Positions 7,651 to 16,904 of a stretch of 64,000 nucleotides of DNA are shown here, piece after piece. Made by a program: the position numbers and the translations under genes. The stretch spans positions 62,001-126,000 of the forward strand of contig NZ_JAPMLL010000008.1 of the NCBI RefSeq assembly GCF_026410255.1, given 5' to 3'. Positions within the stretch are counted from its first letter, which is position 1; the number at the start of each line of letters is the position of its first letter. The notes below the pieces were generated by a model. The model was not told the DNA's origin. It saw nothing but the letters and a program-made list of their open reading frames with translations, and searched no databases. Source of the stretch: Xanthomarina sp. F1114. GTDB taxonomy: Bacteria; Bacteroidota; Bacteroidia; Flavobacteriales; Flavobacteriaceae.

Positions 7651-7763
7651 AGCTTTCTATCTCATTAAAAAAATGCCTATTTTCACAGAACTAAATCTAT
7701 TTTTCTACTCATTTACATTTTTTGGAACGTATTTTGAGTAAGCCTTATTACAAATATTCTCTT

Positions 7764-10700
7764 ATGAAAAACTATATCGCTATAATCACCATTCTACTTT
7801 TTGCTCAATTCTCTCAAGCGCAAGACAAGCCTTACGACAAGCTCTGGAAGCAAGTTCAAGTTTTAGAAATGGACAATTTGCCTAAATCTGCTTTAAAAAT
7901 AGTAGACCAAATAGAAGTTTTGGCTAAAAAAGATGATAACAAACCTCAACAAATTAAGGTGCTGCTTTTTAAAAGCAAGTTTGCTTTAATTTTAGAGGAA
8001 GAAGCGCAGCTAAGCATTATTAAGGACTTTAAAACTGCCATTTCTAAGAACGAAACACCTATAAAAAATGTCTTAGAGAATATGCTCGCTACTATATACT
8101 GGCAATATTTTCAAGAGAATAGATACAAATTTTATAACAGAACAAAATTAAACGACAAAGACGTTGCCAGCGATTTTAGAACTTGGGATTTACAGACGAT
8201 TTTCAATGAGATTCAACTGCTCTATAAAAATTCTTTAAAGGAGGGTTTGGCACTTCAACAAGAGGATTTAAAGGAGTATTCTAGTATTTTAATAGAACAA
8301 AAAGGCTCCAAAATTTACAGACCCAGTTTGTATGATTTACTGGCTCATAATGCTTTGAGTTTTTATCAAACTACTGAAAACAGCATCACAAAACCGGCTT
8401 ATAAATTTGAAATAGATCAGGAAGCTTATTTAAGTGACTCTAATAGTTTTTCAAAACTACCTATCACCTCTCAAGATTCCACTTCTCTAGAGTTACAAGC
8501 TTTAAAGTTGTATCAAGATTTAATTAAGTTTCATTTAAAAGACAAGAATCCCGAAGCTTTGGCCGATGTCAATATTTTGCGCTACAACTTTGTAAAAGAA
8601 CATGCGACCTTTCAAAATAAAGACAGTTTATTGCTGCAAGCATACAAAACCGAAGCCCAACGTATAAAAACTCATGAAGCTTCAGGTCTATATCGTTTTG
8701 AAATTGCTAATATTTATTTTGAACAAGGTCAAGATTATCAGCCGGGAACAAACATAGAAAATCGTTGGAAAATAAAAGATGCCGTACAACTTTGCAATAG
8801 TATTATAAAGGAATTTCCCAATAGTAAAGCAGCCAAAAAAAGTCAGGTTCTTTTAAAACAAATACATCAGGAATCGCTAAAAATTATTGCAGAAAACTAT
8901 TTAGCTATTGGGCAAGATGCTAAAATCCTCGTGACTTATAAAAATATAAATGAATTGGATTTCAGCATTTATAGAATCTCTGAAAAGCAATTTAAAACTT
9001 TTAATGAAACCTATAAAACAGAAGATAAACTAGATTTTATTAATAAGCTAAGAGCAGAAAACACTTGGAAAAGCACGTTAAAAAATGAATTGGATTATCA
9101 GGAACACAGCAGCGAACTTTTAATTCCGAAATTAACTAATGGCAGGTATTTAATAGTTGCCAAAACCAATTCTAAAGAAAACACCTTTGCTTACAAAGTT
9201 ATACAAGCAACCAATATTGCTGTGGTTGAAAAAAATGGAAACGACAAGCAATTGTATCAGTTTATAGATAGACTTACAGGCGAACCTTTAAGCAATCTTC
9301 AGGTTGAAGTTACATATTTTATAAATTACAACGAGAATCAAAGCAGTAATACATATACAACTAACGATTTAGGGGAAATAGAATTCTTAAAGGGGTCTAA
9401 AGTTTGGTATAGAATAGGTTTAGAAGCTACTTGCTCTGAGGAAAAAGCCTATTTCGGAAATTATCATTTAAACAGAAGATATACTCCAAATACTTATCAG
9501 GAAGACTATAGGGGATTTGTTTTTACAGATAGAAGTATTTACAGACCGGGACAAACCGTTTATTTTAAAGGTATTGCGCTAAAAATTGAAGATGGAAAAT
9601 CTAAAGTTATCCCAAATGAATTATTTTATATAGAAGTTTACGATTCGAACGAGAACGAAATTGCTGAGTTAGAATTAAGCTCCAATGAATTTGGTTCTGT
9701 TTCAGGCGAATTTATTTTGCCTAATTCTGGTTTGAATGGAAATTATAGTATTGAGTTTTACGGAGACAAAAACGATGTGGATGTCGCACATTATTTTTCC
9801 GTAGAAGAATACAAACGTCCTAAGTTTGAAACCAAATTCAACCCAATTACAGAAAGCTTTAAAGTAAATGACTCCATAACTATAAAAGGTCATGCTTTAG
9901 CCTATGCCGGGAGTAATATTACCCATGCTAAGGTAGTTTATAGGGTACACAGGAAAGTGCAATATCCACGTTGGTATTATTGGTATCGACCTGCTTTTTA
10001 TAGTGAGCCCCAAGAAATAACTCATGGTGAAAGCCATACCAATGAAAAAGGTGAATTTGAAATCACTTTTAAAGCCATTCCAGATTCCAGTGTTGATAAA
10101 GACAATCTACCTATATTTAATTATGAAGTAACAGCAGATGTCACCGATTTAAATGGTGAAACACGCTCAGCAACAACCATTGTCAATGTTGGTTATCATA
10201 CCTTACTTGCAAGTATTTCACTTCATTCTTCTTTAGAAAAACAGAAAAAAGATCATAAGCTCACTATAGATACAAAAAACCTCAATGGCGAATTTGTTCC
10301 AGCTCAAGGAACCCTGAAAATTTATAAGCTTCAAGCACCAGAACATGTCTTACGTCCAAGACCTTGGAAGGCTCCAGATTATCAAATACTTTCTGAAACA
10401 GAATTTAAAGCTAAGTTTCCTTATGAAGCTTATACCAATGAAGACGATGCTAATAACTGGAAAAAAGGCGAACTTGTTTTAGAAAAATCATTTAATACTG
10501 AAAAATCTAAAGAGTTGGATCTAGGAAACATCAAAAAATGGGAATCTGGACAGTATGTGATTGTTTTAGAAAGCAAAGATAAATTTGGTCAAGCTGTCAA
10601 AGATGAAGCAAGAACCACTGTGTACAGCGATACTGATAAAACACTATCGGATAACCAATTATTTAGAATTTCTACCAATAAAGAGAATTATAATATCGAT

Positions 10701-13700
10701 GACACTGTAGAGCTATCTTTAGCTTCAGCAGCTAAAGATCTAAAGGTTACTGTTGAAATTGAAAAAAACAAAGAGACCATAAACACTTATGTCATTCCAT
10801 TAAACAACAACAAAAAAACCATTAGCATTCCTGTTAATAAAGCAGATTTGGGTGGGTTTGCTGTACATTATAGTTATGCTTATCAAAATAGTTTTGGTTC
10901 TGGCACTAAGATTATTTCTGTGCCTTATCCTAAAACCGACTTAGAAATTGAAACCACCACTTTTAGAGATAAATTACAACCTGGACAGGATGAAATCTGG
11001 AGTTTTAAAATAAAAGGTCCGAAAGGCGAACAGGTATCTGCCGAGTTATTAGCAAGTATGTACGATATGTCTTTAGACCAATTTAAACCTCATAGCTGGA
11101 CTTTTAATCCCATACAGCATCCTAGCTATTATTCGCATTATACCAGAAATGCCAGAACTAGTTTTTCTACGGAAGGGTTTCGAATTCAAAATTTAAATGG
11201 GTTCTATCTAAATTACCCACAAAATGTCTACGATCAACTAGATTGGTTTGGATTTAGTTTAACAGACTCTTGGGCAAGAAATAGATACCTTAGAAATATA
11301 AGAAATACAGCTTCATATAATAGCTCTTTAAAAAGTGGAGTTGTTAGTGGGACCATATATGACGAAAACGGATTGCCTTTACCAGGTGTCAATATTTTAA
11401 TTAAAGGAATAAACAAGGGGACCCAAACCGACTTTGATGGTCATTTTTCCTTGACGACAGAAACTGGCGATGTGCTTGTTATTAGTTTTGTTGGATATAC
11501 TACCAAAGAGTACACAATTGATGTAAATAACTCGTTTAGTCTCTCTATGTCTCCTGATGTAAATTCTATTGATGAAGTTGTAGTTACCGCTTTAGGGGTA
11601 CATAGAGAGGAAAAAGCTATGGGATATGCACCCGATAATATGCTCGCAGAGAGTATGGAAGACTCTGAGGCTCTCAATGAGGAGACTATAACCACCAATG
11701 TACCTATCTCCAAAAAAGAAGACTTCTCTCAAGTTCAAATCCGTAAAAACCTGCAGGAAACCGCCTTTTTCTTTCCACAGTTACAAACAGACGAAAAAGG
11801 GCATGTTAGTTTTAGTTTCACCACCCCAGAAGCCTTAAGCAAATGGAAATTGCAATTATTGGCACATACCAAAACTTTAGAATCAACAACAACTACCTTG
11901 GAAACAGTCACTCAAAAAGAGTTAATGGTGCTTCCAAATGTGCCACGTTTTTTACGTCAAGGAGATCAAATAACCATTAGTTCTAAGATTGCAAACTTGA
12001 CTAAGAAAGACTTGTCTGGACAAGCTGTTTTACAATTGTTTGATGCAATAAATGGAAAAGCTATTGATGCTGATTTAGGCAATACTTTAAACACAAAAAC
12101 TTTTACAGTTGCTAAAAAAGGAAACACTGAAGTCTCCTGGAGCTTATCCATTCCAGATTATGTGGATGCCATTCAGTATAAAATAATTGCGAAAGCAGGA
12201 GATTATAGCGATGGTGAACAAAATGCCCTTCCTGTACTATCAAACAGAATGTTGGTTACTGAAACTTTATCCATGTGGATACGCTCTAACGAAACCAGAA
12301 CTTTCACTTTAGACAAACTGAAGACAAATACTTCAACCACTTTAAAACACCATAAGCTAATGTTGGAAATGACGTCCAATCCGGCTTGGTATGCTGTGCA
12401 AGCCTTACCTTATTTAATGGAATATCCTTACGATTGTAATGAGCAGATATTTAGTCGATATTACGCGAATTCCTTAGCCAGCCATATAGCCAATTCCAAT
12501 CCTAGAATTCAGGAGGTTTTTAATCAGTGGCGGAGTTCGGATGCGCTTCTATCCAATTTAGAAAAGAATCAAGAATTAAAATCTATTCTTATTGAAGAAA
12601 CGCCTTGGTTGCGAGATGCTCAAAGCGAAACCGAACAAAAGAAACGTATTGCTTTGCTTTTCGATTTAAATAAAATGACGAGCGAATTACAATTAAACAT
12701 TAAAAAATTAGAGCAGAACCAAATGGGCAATGGGTCTTGGGCCTGGTTTCAAGGAGGAAAACCAAATCGCTTTATTACGCAACATATTATTTCTGGGTTT
12801 GGTCATCTAAACAAGTTACATGTCATTCCGAACGACAGTGAGGAATCTATGATTAAAAAAGCCATTAGCTATCTAGACAAAGAGTTTGTTGAAGAATACA
12901 GAAACATTACAAAATATAAGTCGGATGTAGATTTAAACTTAGATCATTTAAGTCATACGCAAGTGCATTATTTATATATGCGAAGCTTCTTTCCTGATAT
13001 TAAAAAGTCGAAAGAAGTTGAAAAAATCATCGCTTATTATCAAACACAAATTAAAAAATACTGGACCAGTCGCTCGTTGTATTCCAAAGGCATGATGGCT
13101 TTAATTTCTTATAGACAACAAGATAAGCATACGGCTTCAAAAATCTTAAAGTCTTTAAAAGAAAACAGCATTACGAGTGATGAATTAGGGATGTATTGGA
13201 AAGAAAATACAGCTTCTTGGTATTGGTATCAGGCGCCAATAGAAACTCAAGCACTAATGATTGAAGTTTTTGCTGAAGTTGGAGCGGTCATTCAGAGCGA
13301 AACGAAGAACCTAAAAGACATAGACAACCTAAAAATGTGGCTTTTAAAAAACAAGCAAACCAATAGTTGGAAAACTACGAAAGCTACAACCGAAGCAGTG
13401 TATGCTTTATTGCTTCAAGGTAGCGACTGGTTGTCTGTAACAGACATGGTTGATGTAGTTATTGGAGGAAACAACATAGAACCTTCTAAACTAGAAGATG
13501 TCAAAGTAGAAGCTGGAACTGGGTATTATAAAACGTCATGGACAGGAACTGATATTACACCAGAGATGGCAGAAGTTACTTTAACAAAAAAAGGTGAAGG
13601 TCTTGCTTGGGGAGCTTTATACTGGCAGTATTTTGAAGATTTAGATAAGATTACTTCGGCTGACCTGCCTGACGGCAGGCAGGAACATCCATTAACTCTT

Positions 13701-14108
13701 AAGAAAAAACTCTTCTTAAAAACCAATACAGATTTAGGTGAAGAAATTACGGAAATAACAGAAAACACAGAATTAGAAATCGGTGATTTAGTGCGAGTTA
13801 GAATTGAGCTAAGTAGCGATAGAGCTATGGAGTTTCTTCATATGAAGGATATGAGAGCGAGTGGTTTAGAACCGGTTAATGTACTTTCTCAATATAAATG
13901 GCAAGATGGTTTAGGCTATTATGAAAGCACCAAAGACGCCTCAACAAATTTCTTTTTTGATTATTTACCAAAAGGCGTTTATGTGTTTGAATACGATTTA
14001 CGTGTAAGTAATGCCGGAAATATGAGTAATGGGATTACGAGTATTCAAAGTATGTACGCTCCGGAGTTTAGTAGCCATAGCAAAGGTATTCGGATTTCTG
14101 TGGATTAA
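7764..14108 (+). CDS. Giant alpha-2-macroglobulin-like protein with a SusC-type regulatory insert
   Basis: A protein of 2114 residues from the ATG at 7764 (signal peptide MKNYIAIITILLFAQFSQAQ); a start at 7722 would bury the signal. N-terminal helical repeats (about 30-400) precede macroglobulin domains, including FTDRSIYRPGQTVYFKG near 590. Residues about 1190-1295 are a carboxypeptidase-regulatory-like domain ending in DEVVVTALGVHREEKAMGY, which otherwise marks the start of SusC/RagA TonB receptors. An A2M domain (FFFPQLQTDEKGHVSFSFTTPE) and the thioester motif CNEQ (Cys1558, Gln1561) follow. Such proteins are thought to trap foreign proteases. Three palindromic repeats are embedded in frame at 12822, 13287 and 13664, and the 3' end is copied seven times downstream. 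The usual neighbour pbpC is absent. Confidence 0.9.
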   Translation: MKNYIAIITILLFAQFSQAQDKPYDKLWKQVQVLEMDNLPKSALKIVDQIEVLAKKDDNKPQQIKVLLFKSKFALILEEEAQLSIIKDFKTAISKNETPIKNVLENMLATIYWQYFQENRYKFYNRTKLNDKDVASDFRTWDLQTIFNEIQLLYKNSLKEGLALQQEDLKEYSSILIEQKGSKIYRPSLYDLLAHNALSFYQTTENSITKPAYKFEIDQEAYLSDSNSFSKLPITSQDSTSLELQALKLYQDLIKFHLKDKNPEALADVNILRYNFVKEHATFQNKDSLLLQAYKTEAQRIKTHEASGLYRFEIANIYFEQGQDYQPGTNIENRWKIKDAVQLCNSIIKEFPNSKAAKKSQVLLKQIHQESLKIIAENYLAIGQDAKILVTYKNINELDFSIYRISEKQFKTFNETYKTEDKLDFINKLRAENTWKSTLKNELDYQEHSSELLIPKLTNGRYLIVAKTNSKENTFAYKVIQATNIAVVEKNGNDKQLYQFIDRLTGEPLSNLQVEVTYFINYNENQSSNTYTTNDLGEIEFLKGSKVWYRIGLEATCSEEKAYFGNYHLNRRYTPNTYQEDYRGFVFTDRSIYRPGQTVYFKGIALKIEDGKSKVIPNELFYIEVYDSNENEIAELELSSNEFGSVSGEFILPNSGLNGNYSIEFYGDKNDVDVAHYFSVEEYKRPKFETKFNPITESFKVNDSITIKGHALAYAGSNITHAKVVYRVHRKVQYPRWYYWYRPAFYSEPQEITHGESHTNEKGEFEITFKAIPDSSVDKDNLPIFNYEVTADVTDLNGETRSATTIVNVGYHTLLASISLHSSLEKQKKDHKLTIDTKNLNGEFVPAQGTLKIYKLQAPEHVLRPRPWKAPDYQILSETEFKAKFPYEAYTNEDDANNWKKGELVLEKSFNTEKSKELDLGNIKKWESGQYVIVLESKDKFGQAVKDEARTTVYSDTDKTLSDNQLFRISTNKENYNIDDTVELSLASAAKDLKVTVEIEKNKETINTYVIPLNNNKKTISIPVNKADLGGFAVHYSYAYQNSFGSGTKIISVPYPKTDLEIETTTFRDKLQPGQDEIWSFKIKGPKGEQVSAELLASMYDMSLDQFKPHSWTFNPIQHPSYYSHYTRNARTSFSTEGFRIQNLNGFYLNYPQNVYDQLDWFGFSLTDSWARNRYLRNIRNTASYNSSLKSGVVSGTIYDENGLPLPGVNILIKGINKGTQTDFDGHFSLTTETGDVLVISFVGYTTKEYTIDVNNSFSLSMSPDVNSIDEVVVTALGVHREEKAMGYAPDNMLAESMEDSEALNEETITTNVPISKKEDFSQVQIRKNLQETAFFFPQLQTDEKGHVSFSFTTPEALSKWKLQLLAHTKTLESTTTTLETVTQKELMVLPNVPRFLRQGDQITISSKIANLTKKDLSGQAVLQLFDAINGKAIDADLGNTLNTKTFTVAKKGNTEVSWSLSIPDYVDAIQYKIIAKAGDYSDGEQNALPVLSNRMLVTETLSMWIRSNETRTFTLDKLKTNTSTTLKHHKLMLEMTSNPAWYAVQALPYLMEYPYDCNEQIFSRYYANSLASHIANSNPRIQEVFNQWRSSDALLSNLEKNQELKSILIEETPWLRDAQSETEQKKRIALLFDLNKMTSELQLNIKKLEQNQMGNGSWAWFQGGKPNRFITQHIISGFGHLNKLHVIPNDSEESMIKKAISYLDKEFVEEYRNITKYKSDVDLNLDHLSHTQVHYLYMRSFFPDIKKSKEVEKIIAYYQTQIKKYWTSRSLYSKGMMALISYRQQDKHTASKILKSLKENSITSDELGMYWKENTASWYWYQAPIETQALMIEVFAEVGAVIQSETKNLKDIDNLKMWLLKNKQTNSWKTTKATTEAVYALLLQGSDWLSVTDMVDVVIGGNNIEPSKLEDVKVEAGTGYYKTSWTGTDITPEMAEVTLTKKGEGLAWGALYWQYFEDLDKITSADLPDGRQEHPLTLKKKLFLKTNTDLGEEITEITENTELEIGDLVRVRIELSSDRAMEFLHMKDMRASGLEPVNVLSQYKWQDGLGYYESTKDASTNFFFDYLPKGVYVFEYDLRVSNAGNMSNGITSIQSMYAPEFSSHSKGIRISVD
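11334..11650 (+). other. CarboxypepD-reg/SusC-plug-like insert inside the macroglobulin gene
   Basis: This part of the gene encodes VVSGTIYDENGLPLPGVNI, then KGTQTDFDGHFSL, VLVISFVGYTTKEYTI and DEVVVTALGVHREEKAMGYA. It is the standard domain found before the plug of SusC-like outer-membrane receptors, here lying between macroglobulin domains and the A2M/thioester half. Confidence 0.85.
12822..12848 (+). repeat. In-frame repeat element inside the macroglobulin gene (copy type 1)
   Basis: GTCATTCCGAACGACAGTGA plus GGAATCT is 27 bases, exactly nine codons (VIPNDSEES). It has ATTCC/GGAAT inverted arms and resembles the common intergenic Bacteroidota repeat with the form GTCATTCCGAAC...GAGGAATCT. 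It lies in the linker before KKAISYLDKEF. Confidence 0.7.
13287..13312 (+). repeat. In-frame repeat element inside the macroglobulin gene (copy type 2)
   Basis: GTCATTCAGAGCGAAACGAA plus GAACCT, translated VIQSETKNL. It looks like the widespread intergenic repeat GTCATTCTGAGCGAAGCGAA with a few changes. It interrupts an alpha-helical stretch between VFAEVGA and DIDNLKMWLL. Confidence 0.6.
13664..13683 (+). repeat. In-frame hairpin repeat inside the macroglobulin gene (copy type 3)
   Basis: CCTGCCTG-ACGG-CAGGCAGG, perfect 8-bp arms around a 4-base loop, translated in frame as LPDGRQ within TSADLPDGRQEHPLT. It is much richer in G and C than the surrounding gene, and the same CCTGCC...GGCAGG form is known to me as an intergenic repeat of flavobacteria. 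Confidence 0.75.
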
Positions 14109-14895
14109 TTTTTAATTACAAACATAGCACGATTGCTCTTATGAGATTCCTGCTTTCGCAGGAATGTGGTACGCTCCGGAGTTTAGTAACCATAGCGAAG
14201 GTGTTCGGATTTCTGTGGATTAATTTTTAATTACAAACATAGCACGAATGCTCTTATGAGATTCCTGCTTTCGCAGGAATGTGGTACACCCCGGAGTTTA
14301 GTAACCATAGCAAAGGTGTTCGGATTTCTGTGGATTAATTTTTAATTACAAACATATAACGATTGCTCTTATGAGATTCCTGCTTTCGCAGGAATGTGGT
14401 ACGCTCCCGAGTTTAGTAGCCATAGCAAAGGTGTTCGGATTTCTGTGGATTAATTTTTAATTACAAACATAGCACGATTGCTCTTATGAGATTCCTGCTT
14501 TCGCAGGAATGTGGTACGCTCCAGAGTTTAGTAACCATAGCGATGGTGTTCGGATTTCTGTGGATTAATTTTTAATTACAAACATATAACGATTGCTCTT
14601 ATGAGATTCCTGCTTTCGCAGGAATGTGGTGCGCTCCGGAGTTTAGTAGCCATAGCGAAGGTGTTCGGATTTCTGTGGATTAATTTTTATAAAAAGATGT
14701 GTATTATAAAGATTCCTGCTTTCGCAGGAATGTGGTACGCTCCCGAGTTTAGTAGCCATAGCGAAGGTGTTCAGATTTCTGTGGATTAATTTTTATAAAA
14801 AGATATGTATTATAAAGATTCCTGCTTTCGCAGGAATGTGGTACACTCCCGAGTTTAGTAGCCATAGCGATGGTGTCCGGATTTCTGTGGATTAA
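14109..14895 (+). repeat. Seven tandem copies of the macroglobulin 3' end plus a palindrome
   Basis: Starting right after the macroglobulin stop, a unit is repeated seven times: five units of 115 bp (stops ending at 14223, 14338, 14453, 14568, 14683) and two of 106 bp (14789, 14895). Each unit holds an AT-rich spacer, the palindrome ATTCCTGCTTTCGCAGGAAT, and a copy of the last 17 codons of the gene with its stop (YAPEFSSHSKGIRISVD-type tail). Copies differ by substitutions only in this tail (Ala/Thr, Ser/Asn, Lys/Glu/Asp, Ile/Val, Arg/Gln and silent third-position changes in the Pro and Val codons); none has an indel there. No independent gene is likely: the longest frame across the units runs through the palindromes. 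Confidence 0.93.
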
Positions 14896-14923
14896 TTTTT
14901 ATAAAAAGATATGTATTATAAAG

Positions 14924-14989
14924 ATTCCTGCTTTCGCAGGAATATTTATATCTTGAGTGGCGAATTGAGATTCCTGCTTTCGCAGGAAT
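14924..14989. repeat. Two orphan palindromes closing the tandem array
   Basis: Two further exact copies of the 20-bp palindrome ATTCCTGCTTTCGCAGGAAT lie at 14924-14943 and 14970-14989, without an attached tail copy. They mark the right end of the array, shortly before the next gene. Confidence 0.9.
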
Positions 14990-15031
14990 TATTAACTTTG
15001 TATATTACTAATCTATTGAAGAACCTTTAAG

Positions 15032-15503: not shown

Positions 15504-16904
15504 ATGAAACACACATTACTCTCTCTCCTTACCTTATTAGTTTTTCAAATTTCTTTTGCCCAGGTATTTGAAGGTGAATACATCAAATATTCTGGCGATA
15601 TGGATAATCGCATCAATATTGTTATTATGGGAGATGGCTATCAAGCCAGCGAATTTGATAAATTTGAAACAGATGCTAGTAACTTTATGACAGACCTGTT
15701 TAGCCAGTCGCCTTTCTCTGAATATAGCGATTATTTTAATGTCTATATTATTAAAGTTCCTTCCAACGAAAGTGGTGCCAGTCACCCAGGAAATGCCAAT
15801 GACATAGAAAATTGTGCAGATGTTCCAATAACTGTAGTAGACAATTATTTTGGCACCAGTTATGATAGTTATGGAACACATAGATTGTTATACACAGAAA
15901 ATTCTGCCACTATAATGAGTGTTTTAGCAGATAATTTTCCCCTATACGATCAAGGTCTATTACTTGTAAACGCCCCTTATTACGGTGGAAGTGGTGGCGC
16001 TTTTCCAATAGCCTCAACAGGAGAATATGCCAGTGAAATTGCCATTCATGAAATTGGTCATTCGCTTGTTAATTTAAAAGACGAGTACTATCCAGGAGAT
16101 ATATTGGCCGAAGAGGGCATAAATATGACTCAAGAAACCAATCCTGATTTAGTAAAGTGGACCAATTGGATAGCTAGTAATGGGGTTGGAATTTACGCCT
16201 ATTGCCCACCTGGAAGTGGAGCGTGCTCAACCTGGTACAGACCTCATCAAGCATGTAAAATGCGTGTTTTGGGGAACTCTTTTTGCGCTGTTTGTAAAGA
16301 AGGAGTTATAGAAAAGATACACGATCTTGTTTCGCCAATAGACGCTTATTCCCCTAATAGCAGTCCTATTGAAGATCCAAATTTCCCTCTTGAGTTTAAT
16401 TTATTTTTAAACAGTCCTTTACCAAATACTTTAGAAAGCTCATGGTCACTTAATTCGAATGCTTTTGCTTCAGATGTGGACCATATCAGTCTTTTAGAAT
16501 CCGATGTAACTGAGGGCGCCAACAGTTTAACTGTAGTAGTAACAGATAATACCCCGCTTCAAAGAATCGATAATCATGAAACCATACATGCATATACGGT
16601 AAATTGGAACATTAATATGTCGACTATTGGAATTGCCGAAGTTACAAGTGAAGAAAATAACTTAAGTATCTCTATGTTTCCAAATCCATCTCAAGACCTG
16701 GTAAATTTTTCATTTAAAAATACCTTAGGCGCTGACTTAACTATTGAAATTATTAGTCTAGATGGTAAAAAAATATTGACTACTGATATTTCAAACAATG
16801 AAAATTCAACCATAGATATCAGCACATTTAGTGCAGGAGTTTATCTGGTTAATTTTTACTCAAACAAAGTCCTAATTGCTAATAAAAAACTTATTAAAAA
16901 TTAA
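15504..16904 (+). CDS. Secreted M64-family metallopeptidase with T9SS sorting domain
   Basis: The protein has 466 residues. A signal peptide (MKHTLLSLLTLLVFQISFAQ) leads into an IgA-peptidase M64-type catalytic region: NRINIVIMGDGYQASEFDKF near 30, and the zinc motif HEIGHSLVNLKDEYY near 180, giving HExxH plus a downstream Asp/Glu. Several cysteines (CPPGSGAC, CKMRVL, CAVCKEG) may form disulfides. The C-terminal 80 residues (SMFPNPSQDLVNFSF ... GVYLVNFYSNKVLIANKKLIKN) are a type A sorting domain recognised by the type IX secretion system, so the enzyme should be exported across the outer membrane and its tail removed. It follows the small lipoprotein by four bases and is closed by a strong terminator. 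Confidence 0.92.
   Translation: MKHTLLSLLTLLVFQISFAQVFEGEYIKYSGDMDNRINIVIMGDGYQASEFDKFETDASNFMTDLFSQSPFSEYSDYFNVYIIKVPSNESGASHPGNANDIENCADVPITVVDNYFGTSYDSYGTHRLLYTENSATIMSVLADNFPLYDQGLLLVNAPYYGGSGGAFPIASTGEYASEIAIHEIGHSLVNLKDEYYPGDILAEEGINMTQETNPDLVKWTNWIASNGVGIYAYCPPGSGACSTWYRPHQACKMRVLGNSFCAVCKEGVIEKIHDLVSPIDAYSPNSSPIEDPNFPLEFNLFLNSPLPNTLESSWSLNSNAFASDVDHISLLESDVTEGANSLTVVVTDNTPLQRIDNHETIHAYTVNWNINMSTIGIAEVTSEENNLSISMFPNPSQDLVNFSFKNTLGADLTIEIISLDGKKILTTDISNNENSTIDISTFSAGVYLVNFYSNKVLIANKKLIKN

Follow-up and report, generated by a model that had tools for sequence, protein, structure and literature searches.

In enteric bacteria, tandem duplications have been reported with REP sequences at their joins, and a hairpin with a GAAA loop is a feature of diversity-generating retroelements. 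In those parts of the published accounts that were available to us, large REP clusters are described as mostly tandem reiterations that include flanking DNA of variable length (PMC3733652), tandem REPIN units are likewise seen to take in flanking sequence (PMC3116915), and the dRS3 elements of Neisseria are arranged in large clusters (PMC3733652, PMC3898611). Neisseria also carries silent C-terminal cassettes behind surface-protein genes, as at maf/fha, and mosaic arrays with silent pilS cassettes, according to the portion of the source at hand (PMC3898611). We here describe a tandem array from Xanthomarina sp. F1114 in which the repeated flank is the end of an alpha-2-macroglobulin family gene. 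The window, that is, the whole stretch of 64,000 nt that was analysed, contains the following features:

7722 to 14108, forward strand: alpha-2-macroglobulin family gene (Pfam: MG2, bait region, A2M, bMG10)
14054 to 14108, forward strand: native tail of the gene (its final 17 codons and the stop), which opens the repeat
14109 to 14144, forward strand: spacer type A, from the gene stop to the first palindrome
14146 to 14165, no strand: palindrome 1
14169 to 14223, forward strand: tail copy 1 (YAPEFSNHSEGVRISVD, then stop)
14261 to 14280, no strand: palindrome 2
14284 to 14338, forward strand: tail copy 2 (YTPEFSNHSKGVRISVD, then stop)
14376 to 14395, no strand: palindrome 3
14399 to 14453, forward strand: tail copy 3 (YAPEFSSHSKGVRISVD, then stop)
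14491 to 14510, no strand: palindrome 4
14514 to 14568, forward strand: tail copy 4 (YAPEFSNHSDGVRISVD, then stop)
14606 to 14625, no strand: palindrome 5, the final one with spacer type A before it
14629 to 14683, forward strand: tail copy 5 (CAPEFSSHSEGVRISVD, then stop), the first with spacer type B
14712 to 14731, no strand: palindrome 6
14735 to 14789, forward strand: tail copy 6 (YAPEFSSHSEGVQISVD, then stop)
14818 to 14837, no strand: palindrome 7
14841 to 14895, forward strand: tail copy 7 (YTPEFSSHSDGVRISVD, then stop)
14924 to 14943, no strand: palindrome 8, closing the last unit
14970 to 14989, no strand: palindrome 9, isolated

The macroglobulin gene is 6.4 kb long and encodes 2128 amino acids counted from a TTG start, and its repeated tail of 17 residues begins four residues before the Pfam match to bMG10 ends. 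The array proper (14054-14943) starts with this tail, and Tandem Repeats Finder recovered it as 7.5 copies of period 115 at 14054-14901 (93% matches, score 1328) together with a second call of period 106 at 14604-14943. Each unit runs in the order gene tail, spacer, palindrome, with spacer type A behind tails 0-4 (five) and type B behind tails 5-7 (three); every tail copy is preceded by a palindrome and GTG, the gene's own tail by ...AGTAT. The palindrome is 20 bp long, ATTCCTGC-TTTC-GCAGGAAT (in full ATTCCTGCTTTCGCAGGAAT), and its nine copies, eight of which close a unit, are without a single difference; with up to two mismatches it has 11 matches in the window, against 0.03 expected. Behind palindrome 9 the sequence resembles, by eye, an intergenic sequence of another genome of the genus (G001). 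The initial annotation had described seven spare copies of the gene end (17 codons and the stop) behind the gene, tail-to-tail steps of 115 bp (five) and 106 bp (two), the same 20-bp palindrome in every unit and the absence of indels and internal stops from all tails, and on each of these points our analysis agrees with it; its list of residue changes was correct as far as it went but incomplete, one copy having also changed Tyr to Cys. Two neighbouring observations may be recorded. Within the macroglobulin gene, at 13664-13683, a palindrome of a second family (CCTGCCTGACGGCAGGCAGG) is placed in frame, and the surrounding stretch is seven residues longer than in the six same-genus orthologs. 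Two reading frames downstream of this gene, whose product resembles a protease inhibitor, a protein of the IgA-peptidase M64 family with a Por secretion tail is encoded (15504-16904). To judge from the names of its relatives, the host presumably lives in a marine habitat.

In its body the palindrome resembles the CGTC-1 REP/dRS3 class, having an 8-bp stem, AT at the ends and a 4-nt loop, and, as far as the available parts of PMC3733652 and PMC3898611 describe these elements, it shares with them a location mostly behind coding regions and the lack of a known dedicated transposase. The outer flanks do not conform: TGAG or AAAG stands before the body and GTG after it, in place of the CGTC and CCA of CGTC-1 REPs. 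The CGTC/TGTC/CCTC tag is absent on both strands of the array palindromes and the CCA tail in either orientation, and an NGTC tag is found at 5 of 56 oriented sites of the genus. That CCA occurs at none of these 56 sites carries no weight, as the sites had been chosen for CT at that position; TGTC together with CCA is present at the unoriented L158 and L178, and CCA-tailed sites are also found in other genera. Unlike in CGTC-1 REPs, the unit in the array includes a gene end. The head-to-tail succession of palindrome and flanking DNA is that of tandem REP/REPIN clusters as the accessible sections of PMC3116915 and PMC3733652 present them, with the differences that the flank is here the end of the adjacent gene (17 codons and the stop), every unit thus carrying a spare gene end, and that the palindromes are single rather than paired as in REPINs. 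Like the neisserial mosaic arrays (pilS, maf/fha), the locus is repeat-rich DNA beside a gene and holds unexpressed gene pieces; however, those cassettes encode alternatives, in the part of PMC3898611 at hand, whereas here 17 ortholog-conserved residues are repeated and altered in the copies. Among the matches listed by a literature search covering titles and the beginnings of abstracts, with most subscription journals outside it, there was no in-frame cluster of gene ends. Mobilisation by a RAYT is not supported, because the sole Y1 transposase match of the genome (L016 1850-2150, at the end of contig C54) is flanked by a different palindrome array (CCGTACCTGACGGCACGG type) and no matching RAYT was found; this other tandem array extends to the contig end. 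The Y1 profile had no match in four of the eight genus genomes, including G007 with its 12 palindromes, and no mobilising enzyme for the palindrome was identified. Relatives of the array were also absent from the plasmid collection.

The eight tails differ at 10 positions, all within the first 39 of the 60 compared, the last 21 being invariant (chance of such a placement, 0.008). Measured against the majority tail, 4 changes are silent and 7 are replacements, random change predicting 22-28% silent; the synonymous versus nonsynonymous check proposed in the initial annotation returns a ratio that is near the neutral expectation and fits neutral drift, with no sign of coding constraint in the macroglobulin copies. 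For comparison we used 86 macroglobulin ortholog loci, of which 82 are distinct, four pairs being identical across the 660 nt compared; four of the six same-genus loci correspond to the records of Bizionia arctica, Formosa maritima, Xanthomarina gelatinilytica and Flavobacteriaceae bacterium LYZ1037 (660 nt identical), which places the host among the flavobacteria of that group. In these 86 loci the tail residues Y, A, P, E, S9 and G are invariant, while F, S, S, H, E and R are present in 82-85, and the mean frequency of the major residue is 0.963 over the first 13 tail residues versus 0.865 over the last 302 residues, a region in which 36 of 271 windows are as conserved as those 13. Since several copies change residues kept in the orthologs (Y to C, A to T, S to N, E to K or D, R to Q), the spare tails are probably not maintained as protein. 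At the Glu position, which is Glu in 82 and Lys in 3 of the 86 loci, Lys is found in the gene's own tail and in copies 2 and 3. Eleven of the 15 informative split pairs among the eight tails are incompatible with one tree; simulated trees without exchange reached this value in 0.1-7% of cases (12-20 mutations, all sites), in at most 11% when the first 40 sites were considered and in at most 33% when only ten hot sites mutate. Sequence exchange between tail copies is therefore likely but not proved, and the earlier statement that such exchange preserves frame and stop is correct.

An exact search with the palindrome across its own genome (G000) returned 17 sites, of which nine are those of the array, two lie at C2:94840-94973 and six are singles. 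The pair on C2 sits 3′ of a DEAD-box helicase gene (Pfam DEAD, Helicase_C) whose product is taken to be intracellular, and the last ~45 nt of this gene recur twice in 114-bp units (L001 1430-1740, L135), with a palindrome of the same family as that of the macroglobulin array and another loop. The third helicase tail runs into a terminator-like hairpin. In the same-genus genome G001 (L139, minus strand) the helicase ortholog has one spare tail, which comes after a palindrome that is broken up by a second repeat; across the eight genus genomes, helicase spare tails occur in these two and in none of the other six, and a helicase-junction pattern allowing up to two mismatches was found, among 397 family genomes (a sample that does not include G001), in the own genome only. 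A common origin of the two helicase cases, sought in their spacers, is unsupported, as 62 of 1000 shuffles were equally alike. The spare and gene tails of G001 differ by 4 nt in 33 (junction codon left out), all silent, with P 0.0005-0.003 if the tail were non-coding, which suggests that both once served as coding sequence. No other observation speaks as strongly against purely passive decay, and on coding constraint the helicase gene points the opposite way to the macroglobulin copies. Elsewhere in the genus, inspection by eye places a palindrome of G007 (L138/L188) flush with the stop of a convergent gene, behind the helicase terminator, and at the same position G006 (L136) has ~30 nt of other sequence, as if an intergenic stretch had been replaced.

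Spare tails were found in none of the 86 macroglobulin ortholog loci, 85 of which offered at least 500 nt behind the stop and the remaining one 157 nt only. Nor did any of 80 named macroglobulin loci contain tandem repeats of period 40 or more under settings that do find the array of the window, and in four of the 86 a palindrome lies no more than 250 nt from the macroglobulin stop, with no tail copies. A tail detector applied to 1469 distinct ORF ends (204 loci plus the window) gave 10 rows, four of them being the macroglobulin array and the two helicase cases and six (L124, L133) being ORFs inside palindrome arrays, which we judged spurious. Duplicated gene-end flanks were seen only at the two helicase sites among 83 palindrome sites scanned (up to two mismatches, genus loci including the helicase locus, macroglobulin array excluded); at L178 the duplicated flanks consist of further palindromes, and the flank-duplication score was at most 15.5 at random positions compared with 24.5-62.5 at the helicase and L178 sites. 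Palindrome pairs at 95-125 bp exist in 15 and pairs at 126-156 bp in 13 of 397 family genomes, the own genome included in both counts, and tandem arrays of palindrome plus spacer without gene tails do occur elsewhere in the family. When 256 ORF ends from 43 loci were scanned (part of the pairs listed, one being the own array, mostly from other genera), no gene tail near a palindrome pair was judged real outside the own array, all other matches lying within palindrome arrays. At one such locus, L223 (G350:C16), the palindrome provides the last codons and stop of a minus-strand ORF of ~395 codons (513-1700). The palindrome alone is insufficient for tail copying. A cause specific to macroglobulin can be set aside as well, given the helicase gene with the same build and the 86 macroglobulin loci without spare tails; because the helicase repeats the build and the macroglobulin orthologs do not, tail copying tracks the palindrome and not the macroglobulin.

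Palindromes of the genus (loci L003-L008 and L145-L204) also show a one-sided relation to coding sequence. Both arrays were excluded, as were sites less than 300 nt from the end of a locus, and orientation by the CT that follows the palindrome body was possible for 56 of 65 sites, the nine unorientable ones being dropped. Counting stop codons up to 5 nt away and in-frame ATGs up to 8 nt away, a coding edge was found at the non-CT end of 40 of the 56 and at the CT end of two (32/45 vs 2/45 once sites with similar flanks are merged), it being understood that the genes are plain open reading frames and the ATGs not proven starts. Ten groups of genus sites have similar coding flanks in different species, and in both arrays the docking (non-CTC) end touches the start of each spare tail. 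In other genera a coding edge is present at 4/30 vs 1/30, with 76 of 106 sites unoriented, and since the effect is weak there, docking may be confined to this genus. Di Nocera and colleagues have described REPs that lie under 20 bp from the 3′ end of an ORF, as well as stop codons supplied by the termini of REPs (PMC3733652); compared with what the available part of that report contains, the one-sidedness is an addition.

We regard it as probable that the array arose by palindrome-linked tandem amplification, the spare tails drifting neutrally with exchange, and we hold with similar confidence that it represents a tandem cluster of a REP-like palindrome whose repeated flank happens to cover the 3′ terminus of the gene beside it. 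Of the two explanations in the initial annotation, amplification driven by the palindrome is the better supported, by an unrelated gene with the same units and by the array's possession of 9 of the 17 exact palindromes of the genome. As to the founding event, we infer that a REP-like palindrome would have settled 3′ of the gene and that a duplication, one of whose joins lay at the edge of the palindrome, would then have copied the last ~57 nt and the spacer. Unequal crossing-over between the 106-115-bp repeats may have brought the number of tails to eight, after which the spare tails would drift neutrally and exchange among them would shuffle the variants. The gene would stay intact throughout because every tail-to-tail exchange restores the same frame and stop. 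Against this reading stand the palindrome sites that lack tail copies, the only moderate strength of the split-pair test, the want of an identified recombinase and the draft state of the assembly; moreover, in the helicase arrays it is the last tail, not a palindrome, that touches the downstream sequence, contrary to a simple duplication of tail, spacer and palindrome, and the silent-only differences of G001 are unlike decay.

Since a tail stands at either end of the helicase arrays, a serious rival, although on balance an unlikely one, is that by replacement or insertion at the 3′ end a segment with a foreign spacer and palindrome was joined to the gene and gave it a new tail, the native tail and its native downstream sequence being left behind and tandem growth following later. 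The last tail of the own helicase array does precede a terminator-like hairpin placed, by eye, as in several orthologs, the four silent changes in G001 look as if both tails had coded, and macroglobulin spacer B shares TATTATAAAGAT with a downstream sequence of G007 (by eye); however, the likeness between the helicase spacers of G000 and G001 is not significant, no donor is known, and the variation of the macroglobulin copies looks neutral, not coding. Rather doubtful, too, is a broader model in which the palindrome is an oriented joining end whose non-CTC side docks to the adjacent coding edge (stop or start codon) and occasionally picks up the 3′ end of the gene that lies on the opposite side, so that spare ends could later replace the expressed end and 3′ ends would be duplicated and swapped by a one-ended process not recognised so far. 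It could also be that the repeated hairpins act on transcript ends, with the tail copies as passengers. The nine palindromes are identical whereas the tails vary, terminator-like matches are in excess in the region (6 found vs 1.1 expected) and members of the family in the genus sit just behind stop codons, but of the nine palindromes only 8 and 9 qualify as terminator-like when the sense strand is read, two folded units are no stabler than shuffles (z -0.84, -1.45) and the three Rfam matches (E 0.25-0.7) fall far under the gathering scores of their families. A structured RNA is not supported, on these last two grounds, and an RNA-level role is very unlikely.

The remaining explanations have still less in their favour. 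The initial annotation had considered the array a reservoir for switching the C-terminus of a surface protein that meets foreign proteases, a use for which the intact frame of every copy, the mosaic pattern, the neisserial precedent (PMC3898611, as far as that source was available) and the Lys shared by the own tail with copies 2 and 3 could be adduced. Yet the first 13 tail residues are nearly invariant across orthologs and the copies alter invariant ones, only 17 residues, from four before the end of the bMG10 match, would be exchanged, silent and replacement changes (4 vs 7) do not suggest usable alternatives under coding constraint, and the helicase gene carries the same arrangement; we consider such a reservoir highly improbable. 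An artefact of assembly in copy number or order might be suspected in 115-bp units from a 56-contig draft, on which both copy number and order rest, but each tail copy has its own sequence, the array lies inside a 185-kb contig and a second genome shows a simpler case, so that we give this explanation hardly any credence. A diversity-generating retroelement, finally, was suggested by 3′-end variation next to a hairpin (compare the available part of PMC3240598), by the shape of that hairpin and by the involvement of A in 8 of 10 variable sites. It can be dismissed almost with certainty: the genome has a single RVT_1 match, a defence enzyme of the DRT2 type encoded on another contig, no template-like copy is seen among the eight tails, and the mutation pattern is wrong, with T/C differences at two variable sites and many adenines that stay constant. 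The DRT2-type reverse transcriptase itself lies at L205 (G000:C54:123725), where its opposite-strand neighbour matches no PADLOC model.

Most likely, then, the spare gene ends arose incidentally as the repeats multiplied and are not a stock of useful protein variants, and that the organism would benefit from an exchange of macroglobulin tails is unlikely and receives no support from the comparison of sequences. Short 'spare ORFs' behind genes can accordingly be debris, which is a warning for their interpretation. Small palindromic repeats can copy gene ends, and not intergenic DNA alone, with frame and stop kept, and such copying is a cheap route to C-terminal change. The one-sided docking gives a quantitative clue to how REP-like repeats without a transposase settle.
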